This document shows, in pieces, positions 31,433 to 35,785 of a stretch of DNA of 36,555 nucleotides. The stretch is from an uncultured Bacteroidota bacterium. Its GTDB lineage: Bacteria > Bacteroidota > Bacteroidia > Chitinophagales > UBA8649. Under the pieces are notes generated by a model. The model did not search any database. It was not told the origin of the DNA and saw only the letters and a list, made by a program, of their open reading frames with translations. The stretch's first letter is position 1, and every line of letters starts with the position of its first letter. Both the position numbers and the translations under genes were made by a program. Location: the NCBI GenBank assembly GCA_937139485.1, contig CAKZQD010000146.1:1-36555 (forward strand), written 5' to 3'.

Positions 31433-32005
31433 ATGAAAATAATTTTTGCCACAAGCAACGAAAACAAAGTAAAAGAAGTAAAAGAAATTTTACCCAAGCA
31501 CATAGCAATAGTTTCTTTAAAAGAAATGGGATATACTGAAGACATTGAAGAAACGGGAAGTACTTTAGAAGAAAATTCTTTACTAAAAGCACAAACTATA
31601 TTTGATAAATATAAACTTCCAGTACTTGCAGAAGATACTGGGCTAGAAGTAGATGCGCTGCAAGGCGCGCCGGGTGTATATTCTGCACGCTATGCAGGCG
31701 AACATGGAAATAGTGAAGCAAATATGCAATTATTGCTCAAAAACCTAGAAAAAGAAGATAATAGAAAAGCGCAGTTTAGAACCGTTGCAACCTTTATAGC
31801 AGAAAACTCGTCTAGTATATATACTGGCGTTGTAAGGGGAGAAATAATCAAAGAAAAAACAGGTGAAAAAGGCTTTGGTTATGATCCAATATTTATTCCT
31901 GCAGGTTTTGATAAAACATTTGCAGAAATGAGCAGCCAAGAAAAAAGTATAGTAAGCCATAGAGCTATTGCAATGCAAAAATTTGCACAGCACTTTGAAA
32001 ACTAA
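31433..32005 (+). CDS. rdgB: dITP/XTP pyrophosphatase (non-canonical purine NTPase)
   Basis: A HAM1/RdgB enzyme that hydrolyses ITP, dITP and XTP to monophosphates, keeping deaminated purines out of nucleic acids. The 190-residue product shows the nucleotide-binding N-terminus FATSNENKVKEVKEIL, the catalytic and metal motif AEDTGLEVDALQGAPGVYSA, GEKGFGYDPIFIPAG and the C-terminal KSIVSHRAIAM. Length and motifs are normal. It is the first gene of a probable operon: the ECF sigma factor starts 6 bp after its stop. Confidence 0.95.
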   Translation: MKIIFATSNENKVKEVKEILPKHIAIVSLKEMGYTEDIEETGSTLEENSLLKAQTIFDKYKLPVLAEDTGLEVDALQGAPGVYSARYAGEHGNSEANMQLLLKNLEKEDNRKAQFRTVATFIAENSSSIYTGVVRGEIIKEKTGEKGFGYDPIFIPAGFDKTFAEMSSQEKSIVSHRAIAMQKFAQHFEN

Positions 32006-32011
32006 ATATTT

Positions 32012-32587
32012 ATGACGATAAATATGCCCGAAGAAAAAAGATTGACGGAAATTATTGAACTTTGTAAAGAAAACGACCGCAAAGCTCAGAGGACACTCTA
32101 TGATCTTTTTTCAAAAAAAATGTTTGTAGTTTGCCTAAGGTATTCTTCAGATTATAGCGATGCCGAAGATATGCTGCAAGAAGGTTTTATAAAAATTTTT
32201 AAAAAAATAGATAAGTATAATCATTCTGGCTCTTTTCCTGCATGGATGAGTAGGTTGATTTCTAATAACTGTATAGACATTATAAGAAAAAAACCAAATT
32301 TATATGCAATAACAGAAGGGCATGAAAATACACTAGAAACCTATAACACAAATGCAATAGATAAATTAATTGGGGAAGATATTGTAAATTTAATTCAAAG
32401 TTTGCCAACTGGTTATAGAACTATATTTAATATGTATGTAGTGGAAGGCTATTCACATAAGGAAATAGCAGAAAAACTTGATATAAGTGCAGGAACTTCA
32501 AAATCGCAATTGAATAGAGCAAGAAAAGTGCTTCAAAAGAAGCTAGAAGAAATAAAAGTATATGAATCTTTGAAAATAAGTAAGTAA
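32012..32587 (+). CDS. ECF-type RNA polymerase sigma factor
   Basis: A 191-residue extracytoplasmic-function sigma factor. Region 2 (about residues 20-90) contains LYDLFSKKMFVVCLRYSSDY, DAEDMLQEGFIKIFKKI and FPAWMSRLISNNCIDIIRKK; region 4 (about 125-180) contains LPTGYRTIFNMYVVEGYSHK and EIAEKLDISAGTSKSQLNRA. There is no sigma-3 or C-terminal sensing domain, so control must come from a partner protein. The best candidate is the next gene, whose start overlaps this stop by one base (TAATG). A second possible start is ATG at 32024. Its target promoters are unknown. Confidence 0.93.
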   Translation: MTINMPEEKRLTEIIELCKENDRKAQRTLYDLFSKKMFVVCLRYSSDYSDAEDMLQEGFIKIFKKIDKYNHSGSFPAWMSRLISNNCIDIIRKKPNLYAITEGHENTLETYNTNAIDKLIGEDIVNLIQSLPTGYRTIFNMYVVEGYSHKEIAEKLDISAGTSKSQLNRARKVLQKKLEEIKVYESLKISK

Positions 32588-33909
32588 TGAGTAAAGAATT
32601 TGATAAAAAAATTAACCAAAAAATCAGCGAGTCGGAGATAGCTCCATCAGCGGGTTTATGGGAAAAAATAGAGGCAGAATTGCCACAAGAAAAACGAAAA
32701 AAAGGCTTTTTTATTTTACCTCTTTTTGGTACACCAATGTTTAAAACTGCAATAGCAGCAAGTGTAATGTTTTTACTAGGTGGTTTTTCTACATATTATT
32801 TTATGAATAATAATGCGCCTGCTTTAGCAAACAAAAACAATGTAGAATCAAACACAAACAAACAATTTATAAAGCAAAATAATTTAAATAAAGAAAACAA
32901 TAATTTAGAGGATAAAAACAAGTTTCAAGCAAAAAACAATACAAAACAAGAAAGTTTAAGTACAAATTTTTTAAGTAAAAAAGCAAATAATAACAAAGCG
33001 GCAACTACTAAGTCTGCAAGTGTGTCAAATAAATTTGCAAATAGCAAAAACCCAGCATTAATTTTTAATAACAATATAGTAGCATCAAATAATTCAAATG
33101 CCAATTTAATTTTTGGAACCCAAGCAAGAGATTACACTTGGGTTTATGATGAAAATACTGGAGCTTACAGTGTTCAATTAAAGTCTGAACAAGTTCAAAA
33201 TACAAATTTTGAAGATAATTCTTTAATGGCAAATACTATAAACCAAGAAAATGAGAATGAAACAAGTTTTATGTCTTTAGCAGAAGAAGAGAAAGAAGAA
33301 AAACTTGAAATTTTAGAAGAAAATGAAGAAGAACCAGTTTTAAAAGCATTTAATTCAAAAACAAATAGAATAAATTATCAAGGATTTTGGTTAGGTCCAA
33401 AAGTAGGTTTTGAAGGTGTTTTTGTAGCAGACGAATTTTATCCAGGTGGAAGCTTTGGCGTAGATGTTGGTTATGATTTTGCTAGCAGTTGGGGAATACA
33501 AACAGGATTAAAATATGCTCTAAACAGTAAGATGATTAAACTAGAACAAGATGGAAAAACAATTGACTATAAAAGTGAATTTAATAGTTTGCACATTCCA
33601 TTATATGCAAGGTATAAGTTTACAAAACTTACCCAAGCCTATTCAAAACCATTGTCGCTTAACATAGTTGGTGGTTTAGATTATGCCTATGCAGATAGAA
33701 AAAAACTGCACCAGTTAGGATTAAATTTGGGAGCAGAATATGATATTTTTACACAAGCAGACTTAATGCTTACAGTAGGTGCAAGAGCTGGAATATATAA
33801 CAACTTAAATCTAAATAAAATAGATGCACCAGAAAAAATTAACAGATACAATTATATGCTAAGTGCTTATTTATCAGTAAGATTTATTGATTGGGCTAAG
33901 AAAAATTAA
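32587..33909 (+). CDS. putative anti-sigma/envelope-spanning protein with C-terminal beta-barrel
   Basis: A 440-residue protein coupled to the ECF sigma gene. Residues 1-45 are cytoplasmic in type and contain EIAPSAGLWEKIEAELP, a short motif that commonly opens putative anti-sigma or regulator proteins of Bacteroidota ECF loci. A single membrane helix follows (about 53-73, KTAIAASVMFLLGGFSTYYF), then a long asparagine/lysine-rich linker (74-258) with an acidic end, then a barrel-like domain (264-434) with strands such as FWLGPKVGFEGVFVADEF, SWGIQTGLKYALNS, LHIPLYARYKF and YNYMLSAYLSVRF, similar to the OMP_b-brl_2 family. There is no Sec-cleaved signal peptide in front of the barrel. How one chain could occupy both membranes is unclear; the domain may instead fold in the periplasm. 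The last 31 codons recur, slightly diverged, at 35693-35785. Confidence 0.75.
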   Translation: MSKEFDKKINQKISESEIAPSAGLWEKIEAELPQEKRKKGFFILPLFGTPMFKTAIAASVMFLLGGFSTYYFMNNNAPALANKNNVESNTNKQFIKQNNLNKENNNLEDKNKFQAKNNTKQESLSTNFLSKKANNNKAATTKSASVSNKFANSKNPALIFNNNIVASNNSNANLIFGTQARDYTWVYDENTGAYSVQLKSEQVQNTNFEDNSLMANTINQENENETSFMSLAEEEKEEKLEILEENEEEPVLKAFNSKTNRINYQGFWLGPKVGFEGVFVADEFYPGGSFGVDVGYDFASSWGIQTGLKYALNSKMIKLEQDGKTIDYKSEFNSLHIPLYARYKFTKLTQAYSKPLSLNIVGGLDYAYADRKKLHQLGLNLGAEYDIFTQADLMLTVGARAGIYNNLNLNKIDAPEKINRYNYMLSAYLSVRFIDWAKKN

Positions 33910-34392: not shown

Positions 34393-34498
34393 GGTATTGT
34401 AATTTTATGTAAACATAGTTCTTATTTAGACTAATTACAAATAAAGAATGATTGAAAATTTTAACCTCATAAATTATACCTTTACAAAAAATAATAAA

Positions 34499-35638
34499 AT
34501 GAAAAAAATAATATTAATTCTAAGCCTGTTTACATTGTCTGTCAGTTTAAATGCCCAAATAGCTGTAGGAAGTTATGAAGAAAATGGAAGAATAAAAGAT
34601 TTTAAAGATGGCTCTTACGAAAAACTTTTAAAAACGACTACCATTTTTGTTTTTTCAAATGTTAATGACAAGGCTTTTTATGAAAGCATTTTAAACGAAA
34701 CTTGGACGCTCACGCCATATGAAATTGTAGATTATAAAGAATTTAGTCCTTTAGATTATTTTTCTGAAGACTACTCGTTTTGTATTTTAAAAGCTTACAA
34801 AAATGAATCCCTATATCATAGCTATTTGGAATTGTACATGTACGATATGGAAAGAATAAATAAAATATTCGGAAAAGTAAAATGGGAAAAACTAGATGAA
34901 AGACAAACCATAGGTAAAAAATTTACTGTTTCTATGGAAAATCAAATCAGTTTTGGTAAAATATATTTTTATGCACAAGCAGAACTTTTTAAAAACCTAC
35001 CACCTTTTTCGGGTATGAGTTATGGAAAAACAAAAGGTTTAGGATATAACGCCGCACAAATGAAAAGTAGTACTTACGTAGTTCCAGATGGTGCGTATTT
35101 ATACTATATGGGTTATTCTAAGCAAGATGAAAAAATAGAGCATTTGAAAACAATGCATGAATCTTTTTATAATGACAAAGTGCATTTCAACTATGAAAAA
35201 GGTTTTATTTCAAACTACTTTCAGCAATTTACAAAACAGATGAAAAGTAAAGAATTAAGTTCAAAAACTGAAAATTTTTCATCTCCACAGCTTTCTAAGC
35301 TCAAAAACAACACATTATACATTCCAGAATATGTTCAAATAAGTTATGATGGTTGGAAAATTTTGGATACTCAAATGTCTAAGTCAGACATTTCAAAAGT
35401 TATGGCTGGTTATAAATATAAATATGAGTTTATAAGTACCGAAGCGTTAGATGAAAAAATAAACGCTGGCGAAGAAATTTATTATTTGAATTATTCAAGA
35501 ATAACGGCAACACAAATTTTCCAAATTATTAATGCAAAAACTGGAAAACCAGTCTTCAAAATGAAAACAGCAGATTTCAAATATAATATTGGACCAAAGA
35601 ATTTTGAGAAAATGAGTAAAGTTATTTCAGAATCTTAA
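34499..35638 (+). CDS. secreted protein of unknown function
   Basis: A 379-residue exported protein with a clear signal peptide (MKKIILILSLFTLSVSLNAQ) if translation starts at the ATG at 34499; an ATG at 34448 would add 17 residues that hide the signal, so 34499 is preferred. The mature protein is tyrosine- and lysine-rich, with LYHSYLELYMYDMERINKIF, ISFGKIYFYAQAELFKNLPP, FSGMSYGKTKGLGYN and a C-terminal half of likely beta character (VQISYDGWKILDTQMSKS, INAGEEIYYLNYSRITATQI, GKPVFKMKTADFKY). I do not recognise a family. It has no lipobox and no T9SS tail. The gene stands alone with a near-match -7 box (TACCTTTA) about 15 bases before the ATG. Confidence 0.75.
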   Translation: MKKIILILSLFTLSVSLNAQIAVGSYEENGRIKDFKDGSYEKLLKTTTIFVFSNVNDKAFYESILNETWTLTPYEIVDYKEFSPLDYFSEDYSFCILKAYKNESLYHSYLELYMYDMERINKIFGKVKWEKLDERQTIGKKFTVSMENQISFGKIYFYAQAELFKNLPPFSGMSYGKTKGLGYNAAQMKSSTYVVPDGAYLYYMGYSKQDEKIEHLKTMHESFYNDKVHFNYEKGFISNYFQQFTKQMKSKELSSKTENFSSPQLSKLKNNTLYIPEYVQISYDGWKILDTQMSKSDISKVMAGYKYKYEFISTEALDEKINAGEEIYYLNYSRITATQIFQIINAKTGKPVFKMKTADFKYNIGPKNFEKMSKVISES

Positions 35639-35692: not shown

Positions 35693-35785
35693 AAAATAGA
35701 CACACCAGAAAAAATTAACAGATACAATTATATGCTAAGTGCTTATTTATCAGTAAGATTTATTGATTGGGTAAAGAAAAATTAG
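35693..35785 (+). pseudogene. duplicated 3' end of the barrel gene
   Basis: This 93-bp segment matches 33817-33909 at 88 of 93 bases, covering the last 30 codons and the stop. The translation KIDTPEKINRYNYMLSAYLS then VRFIDWVKKN differs by two residues from the functional copy and keeps the frame. No promoter or start belongs to it, so it is a relic of a second barrel gene or of a partial duplication. It ends tail to tail on the stop of the toxin gene. Confidence 0.85.

Follow-up and report, generated by a model that had tools for sequence, protein, structure and literature searches.

Two touching genes of an uncultured Bacteroidota bacterium very probably form a cognate pair: the first encodes an ECF sigma factor, and the second an anti-sigma factor of the Dma/Reo type, a single protein spanning the cell envelope. 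They lie in the window, which is the whole stretch of 36,555 nucleotides analysed here. The assignment to a Dma/Reo-type pair follows from the overlap of the two open reading frames, Pfam matches, AlphaFold2 and Foldseek results, linkage of the genes across genomes, co-variation of the two proteins, charge bias around the membrane helix, and published proteins of the same layout. We infer that in this organism the two proteins are in contact and the sigma factor is repressed, and likewise infer the outer-membrane location, the signal, and the release step. With one chain running from the outer membrane to a sigma factor, the path from cell surface to transcription could hardly be shorter. The design is not new: the layout has so far been studied in gut Bacteroides and Phocaeicola, and the window, as a further Dma/Reo-type member, extends its occurrence to a genome nearest the Chitinophagales.

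The Gene Pair and Its Neighbourhood

The sigma factor gene (32012-32587, + strand) encodes a Das/EcfO-like protein of 191 amino acids in which Pfam recognises the Sigma70_r2 and Sigma70_r4_2 domains. NCBIfam places it above cutoff in the ECF superfamily only. The protein shares 37-48% identity with 14 sigma factors from operons of this type in the order, and 56% with its closest named relative (UBA1941). The second gene (32587-33909, + strand) encodes the Dma/Reo-like, putatively envelope-spanning anti-sigma factor of 440 amino acids, recognised from its open reading frame, its Pfam barrel, the AlphaFold2 model, and relatives of the same layout. The two genes meet in a TAATG overlap, the sigma stop codon TAA occupying 32585-32587 and the anti-sigma ATG 32587-32589, so that one base is common to both. 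A preliminary description of this DNA had reported that the second gene begins inside the sigma stop codon, and its coordinates, overlap, and lengths of 191 and 440 amino acids proved exact.

On the 5′ side, a gene for an RdgB/Ham1-type NTP pyrophosphatase (31433-32005, + strand; Pfam Ham1p_like, E 2.6e-67) is separated from the sigma gene by a 6-bp gap and probably belongs to the same transcription unit. An RdgB/Ham1-type gene is found upstream of the sigma gene also in many Chitinophagales relatives. A promoter scan returned sites that were no more numerous than in shuffled sequences. On the 3′ side, a segment of 92 bases (33817-33908) at the end of the anti-sigma gene, which takes in the last strand of the barrel and all but a part of the stop codon, recurs with 96% identity at 35693-35784, 1876 bases downstream. 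It looks as if a partial duplication had taken place or an insertion had separated two copies. A protein of 396 amino acids, without Pfam match, is encoded at 34448-35638, between the anti-sigma gene and the second copy.

Architecture of the 440-Residue Protein

The full-chain structure prediction that the preliminary description had proposed as a check was obtained with AlphaFold2 from an alignment of 17 rows, and it gave N-terminal helices, a membrane helix, a disordered linker, and a confident barrel. The putative sigma-binding segment comprises residues 1-35 (32587-32691, + strand). It is predicted to form two helices at residues 3-15 and 24-31 and carries a family signature around Asp6, Pro20, Trp25, and Leu32, whose Trp is invariant in 175 of 175 relatives. 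A single inner-membrane helix is predicted by AlphaFold2 at residues 50-74 (32734-32808, + strand), as expected from the one internal membrane helix noticed earlier. The net charge is +2 before this helix and 0 after it in the window protein, and the charge before the helix exceeds that after it in 88% of 203 relatives, a positive-inside bias.

The helix is followed by a disordered Asn/Glu/Lys-rich stretch, predicted to be periplasmic, at residues 75-262 (32809-33372, + strand). The Asn/Lys-rich linker had been estimated at roughly 185 residues; it measures 188, contains 22% Asn, and has pLDDT values mostly below 50, with a small predicted hairpin at residues 183-198. The C-terminal part, earlier called barrel-like, is modelled as an eight-stranded outer-membrane beta-barrel at residues 266-436 (33382-33894, + strand), with pLDDT mostly above 85 in the strands. 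Pfam OMP_b-brl_2 matches residues 270-410 with an E value of 2.9e-8, above the curated cutoff. The best Foldseek matches of the barrel include the 8-stranded outer-membrane barrels NspA (target TM-score 0.75), Ail, OmpA, OmpX, and OmpW. A PDB sequence search with the 440-residue protein gave no chain clearly related to it. The other possibility raised at the outset, that this part is a soluble periplasmic domain, is not the one favoured by AlphaFold2, Pfam, and Foldseek, which support an integral outer-membrane barrel instead.

The chain might in principle be cut after the membrane helix, by signal peptidase or by a site-1 protease, to yield a membrane anti-sigma factor and an independent outer-membrane barrel. 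The window protein itself reads APALA-N just after the helix, and operons in which the two parts are separate genes exist among relatives. However, an AxA motif behind the helix is not enriched, occurring in 6% of 203 relatives against 5-6% in shuffles, and for Dma/Reo proteins in the literature a span from cytosol to outer membrane is described (PMC13088901, PMC13114119). Cleavage into two products is very unlikely. A signal-peptidase site behind the helix, considered as a candidate feature, was not supported by the same AxA frequencies in the 203 relatives, and the earlier statement that the protein is without a cleavable signal agrees with the lack of a conserved cleavage motif after the helix in relatives.

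Linkage to Sigma Factor Genes across Bacteroidota

The survey of ECF neighbours across Bacteroidota that had been suggested earlier was carried out at two levels. In the survey of the order and its surroundings, the protein was matched in 20 of 61 genomes, and at the loci read out among those 20 the sigma gene lies directly upstream. Matches were found in 92 of 296 genomes in the phylum survey. A partner with the N-terminal motif stands directly downstream in 209 of 221 nonredundant sigma loci, a set that is biased where loci were fetched through that motif; the genes touch or overlap in 135 of the 209 linked loci. Among the 78 unique loci fetched by sigma sequence alone, the motif partner was found in 70 by script and in 75 after the missed ones were read. 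The arrangement of sigma factor and partner is far above chance, and the layout is present in several Bacteroidota groups.

Sigma matches are only weak in the five remaining genomes of the family to which the window belongs, so the sigma/anti-sigma pair seems to be absent there. A concatenated profile was run against 296 genomes of the class to look for natural fusions of sigma and anti-sigma factor like that of Dma3. None was uninterrupted among the matches listed, and each of these that spans both parts has an intervening stop codon. Contig 61 of the genome from which the window comes carries another, divergent pair (L244), consisting of a sigma-like protein of 181 amino acids and a partner of 500 amino acids that has a Pfam barrel and a helix at 46.

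Probable Contact between the N-Terminus and the Sigma Factor

Direct-coupling analysis was applied to 175 sigma/partner pairs (about 149 effective sequences; positions are in window numbering). The top interprotein couplings join sigma residues 167 and 171 with partner residue 6, sigma 124 with residue 9, sigma 30 with residue 20, and sigma 23 with residue 33. In the leading pairs, the couplings of helix 1 fall mostly in region 4 and those of helix 2 mostly in region 2, a bias that is not significant by itself over the top 40 coupled pairs (p = 0.18). Helices wrapped on sigma regions 4 and 2 are the binding mode known for RseA or CnrY.

The top coupling score is 2.53 versus at most 1.71 in all 60 shuffles, free or preserving coarse clades, and versus at most 2.38 in 12 shuffles within 60 fine clusters. 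Since the fine-cluster shuffles narrow the margin, part of the co-variation signal may have a phylogenetic origin. The same pair stays on top when only partners of at least 340 amino acids are used; it was not recovered from the 70 shorter partners alone. A single-chain model of the sigma factor and N-terminus from locus L198, a modelling construct in which the sigma stop codon is read through as Ser, reached a pTM of 0.41 with pLDDT of 60-77 in the N-terminal helices and did not reproduce the contact; the window's two genes lie in different frames.

The anti-sigma-like character ascribed to the N-terminus in the preliminary description is supported by the conserved motif and by its co-variation with the sigma factor across the 175 pairs. 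The case had been taken to fall if no contact between the two was predicted, and the co-evolution analysis did not have that outcome. On these grounds the N-terminus likely contacts the sigma factor.

Family models (Pfam, NCBIfam) recognise the 440-residue protein only as an outer-membrane beta-barrel, which would suit an ordinary barrel with an unusual N-terminus, placed behind a sigma gene by coincidence. This absence of any regulatory pair is, however, extremely improbable in view of the near-universal sigma linkage, the overlapping starts, the invariant Trp, the co-variation with the sigma factor, and the published genetics of same-layout proteins (PMC9308784, PMC13114119).

Comparison with Known Systems and Proposed Mechanism

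The Dma proteins of B. thetaiotaomicron described by Pardue et al. consist of a sigma-binding segment, one membrane helix, a disordered tether, and a C-terminal barrel, and are encoded beside an ECF sigma gene (PMC13088901). The pairs Dma1/Das1 and Dma2/Das2, likened here by published layout, share with the window this same four-part arrangement adjoining the sigma gene, whereas the window belongs to another bacterial order and its sigma factor is known as a member of the ECF superfamily, not placed in ECF21. Dma3 is counted in the same Dma family but carries the sigma factor fused at its N-terminus, while the window genes are separate but touching (PMC13088901). In P. vulgatus, Evans et al. 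described an anti-sigma factor that envelope stress induces and whose chain is predicted to cross the periplasm and end in an outer-membrane barrel at the C-terminus, and they likened the pair to one of B. fragilis (PMC9308784). A 2026 study names this protein Reo and states that it spans all compartments (PMC13114119). The window resembles EcfO-Reo in having a sigma gene followed by a large anti-sigma protein predicted to cross the periplasm and to end in an outer-membrane barrel. Every testable layout feature of the Dma/Reo class is present in the window. The assignment is made by described layout, and the sequences compared are Tannerellaceae, Parabacteroides, and Bacteroidales relatives, not Dma1-3 or Reo themselves; the barrel profile of the window family matches barrel partners of Tannerellaceae, Parabacteroides, and other Bacteroidales with an E value of 3e-13.

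The classical factors RseA, MucA, RsiW, and CnrY likewise combine short cytoplasmic helices with one membrane helix, and their helices pack on sigma regions 2 and 4. In contrast to the window protein, they have no outer-membrane barrel in the same chain. The structures 1or7, 6in7, 5wuq, and 4cxf of such factors came up in the PDB comparisons; the PDB search with the 440-residue protein returned no classical inner-membrane anti-sigma factor as a sequence relative. In FecI-FecR-FecA, an outer-membrane barrel also signals to an ECF sigma factor. This system differs in using three separate proteins and a TonB-dependent receptor, whereas the window has one chain without a plug: its pair has an 8-stranded barrel only and no TonB-dependent receptor with a plug in the operon.

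In the mechanism proposed, the cytoplasmic N-terminus would clamp the sigma factor with its two short helices, the first held against region 4 and the second against region 2. The single uncleaved helix would anchor the chain in the inner membrane, and the flexible linker, which with its roughly 185 residues can bridge the periplasm, would lead to the 8-stranded outer-membrane barrel. A change in the outer membrane, be it damage, a failure of barrel assembly, lost tension, or a ligand, would most likely be reported by the barrel and would presumably be passed along the chain or trigger its proteolysis. Release of the sigma factor would most likely occur via tension, conformational change, or regulated proteolysis, and the freed sigma factor would transcribe an envelope-response regulon. 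For the sensing and release steps, no demonstration for any Dma/Reo-type member was found in the literature searched.

It has been reported that, when Dma/Reo anti-sigma factors are lost, the sigma factor becomes active and the envelope is altered, with effects on OMVs, O-antigen, and NigD proteins (PMC13088901, PMC9308784, PMC13114119). The effect of dma2 deletion depends on das2, and the sensing of a glycan ligand by Dma is a hypothesis of Pardue et al. (PMC13088901). EcfO-Reo is thought to sense outer-membrane stress (PMC9308784, PMC13114119). The suggestion that one chain could link the envelope to a sigma factor stands as to layout and likely contact; the signalling role, offered at first as a conjecture, is already experimental in same-layout systems.

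Split, Barrel-Less, and Tandem-Motif Relatives

Among relatives, the parts of the chain occur in other combinations. About 50 loci, by a heuristic count, are split operons in which the sigma gene precedes a short membrane anti-sigma partner of about 190-330 amino acids, and the next gene encodes a separate exported protein whose end is barrel-like; they include L027, L030, L036, L049, L198, and about 45 others. At L164, L165, and L166, which hold the nearest sigma relatives of the window behind an RdgB-type gene, the partner has 241-258 amino acids and no barrel, and no barrel gene comes next. At L172, L175, L186, L196, and L208, the barrel is kept at the same place behind the RdgB-type and sigma genes. 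The barrel is not indispensable for the sigma/partner pair, because the nearest sigma relatives have barrel-less partners at this locus.

These barrel-less partners at the same RdgB-sigma locus would fit a reading in which the barrel is an independent outer-membrane protein fused as a mere anchor, the sigma factor being governed by the N-terminal half only. Conversely, the split operons again include the barrel, there in a gene of its own, and a Pfam barrel occurs in the next gene after 23 of 53 short partners versus at most 1 of 27 long ones (p = 0.0002, taking 1 match for the long, for which the listing covers 25 of 44 families). Pfam barrels after short partners and not after long ones indicate a functional link of the barrel, and the anchor reading is unlikely. 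The Dma/Reo-type reading is preferred. The split, barrel-less, and tandem-motif relatives serve as natural experiments on the contribution of the barrel.

The barrel model is matched by 68 of 104 long partners, and some of the long partners without a barrel carry PKD, plug, or von Willebrand domains. Sigma-linked proteins of 683-873 amino acids at L053, L056, and L057 have the same N-terminal module and helix, and at L053 a TonB plug and a von Willebrand A domain stand in place of the barrel. In a FastTree tree, the long and short partner states need 16 changes, and well-supported branches force at least 7 (with the long label). It is slightly more likely than not that the Dma/Reo layout represents one among several states of a modular system, the same sigma-binding module also occurring in split, barrel-less, other-sensor (PKD, or a TonB plug together with von Willebrand A), and tandem-array forms. 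If this is true, a split anti-sigma factor and its barrel must communicate across the periplasm, and arrays of about six to ten motifs could titrate several sigma molecules.

No mention of split operons, barrel-less nearest relatives, or tandem motifs was found in the literature searched, and these variants are possibly unreported. Two or three sigma-binding motifs occur in tandem in Chitinophagaceae. In Saprospiraceae, L191 (5699-7750) and L194 (5775-8030) encode about six to ten tandem motifs with a period of about 31 residues, and these arrays stand ahead of the membrane helix and the C-terminal barrel.
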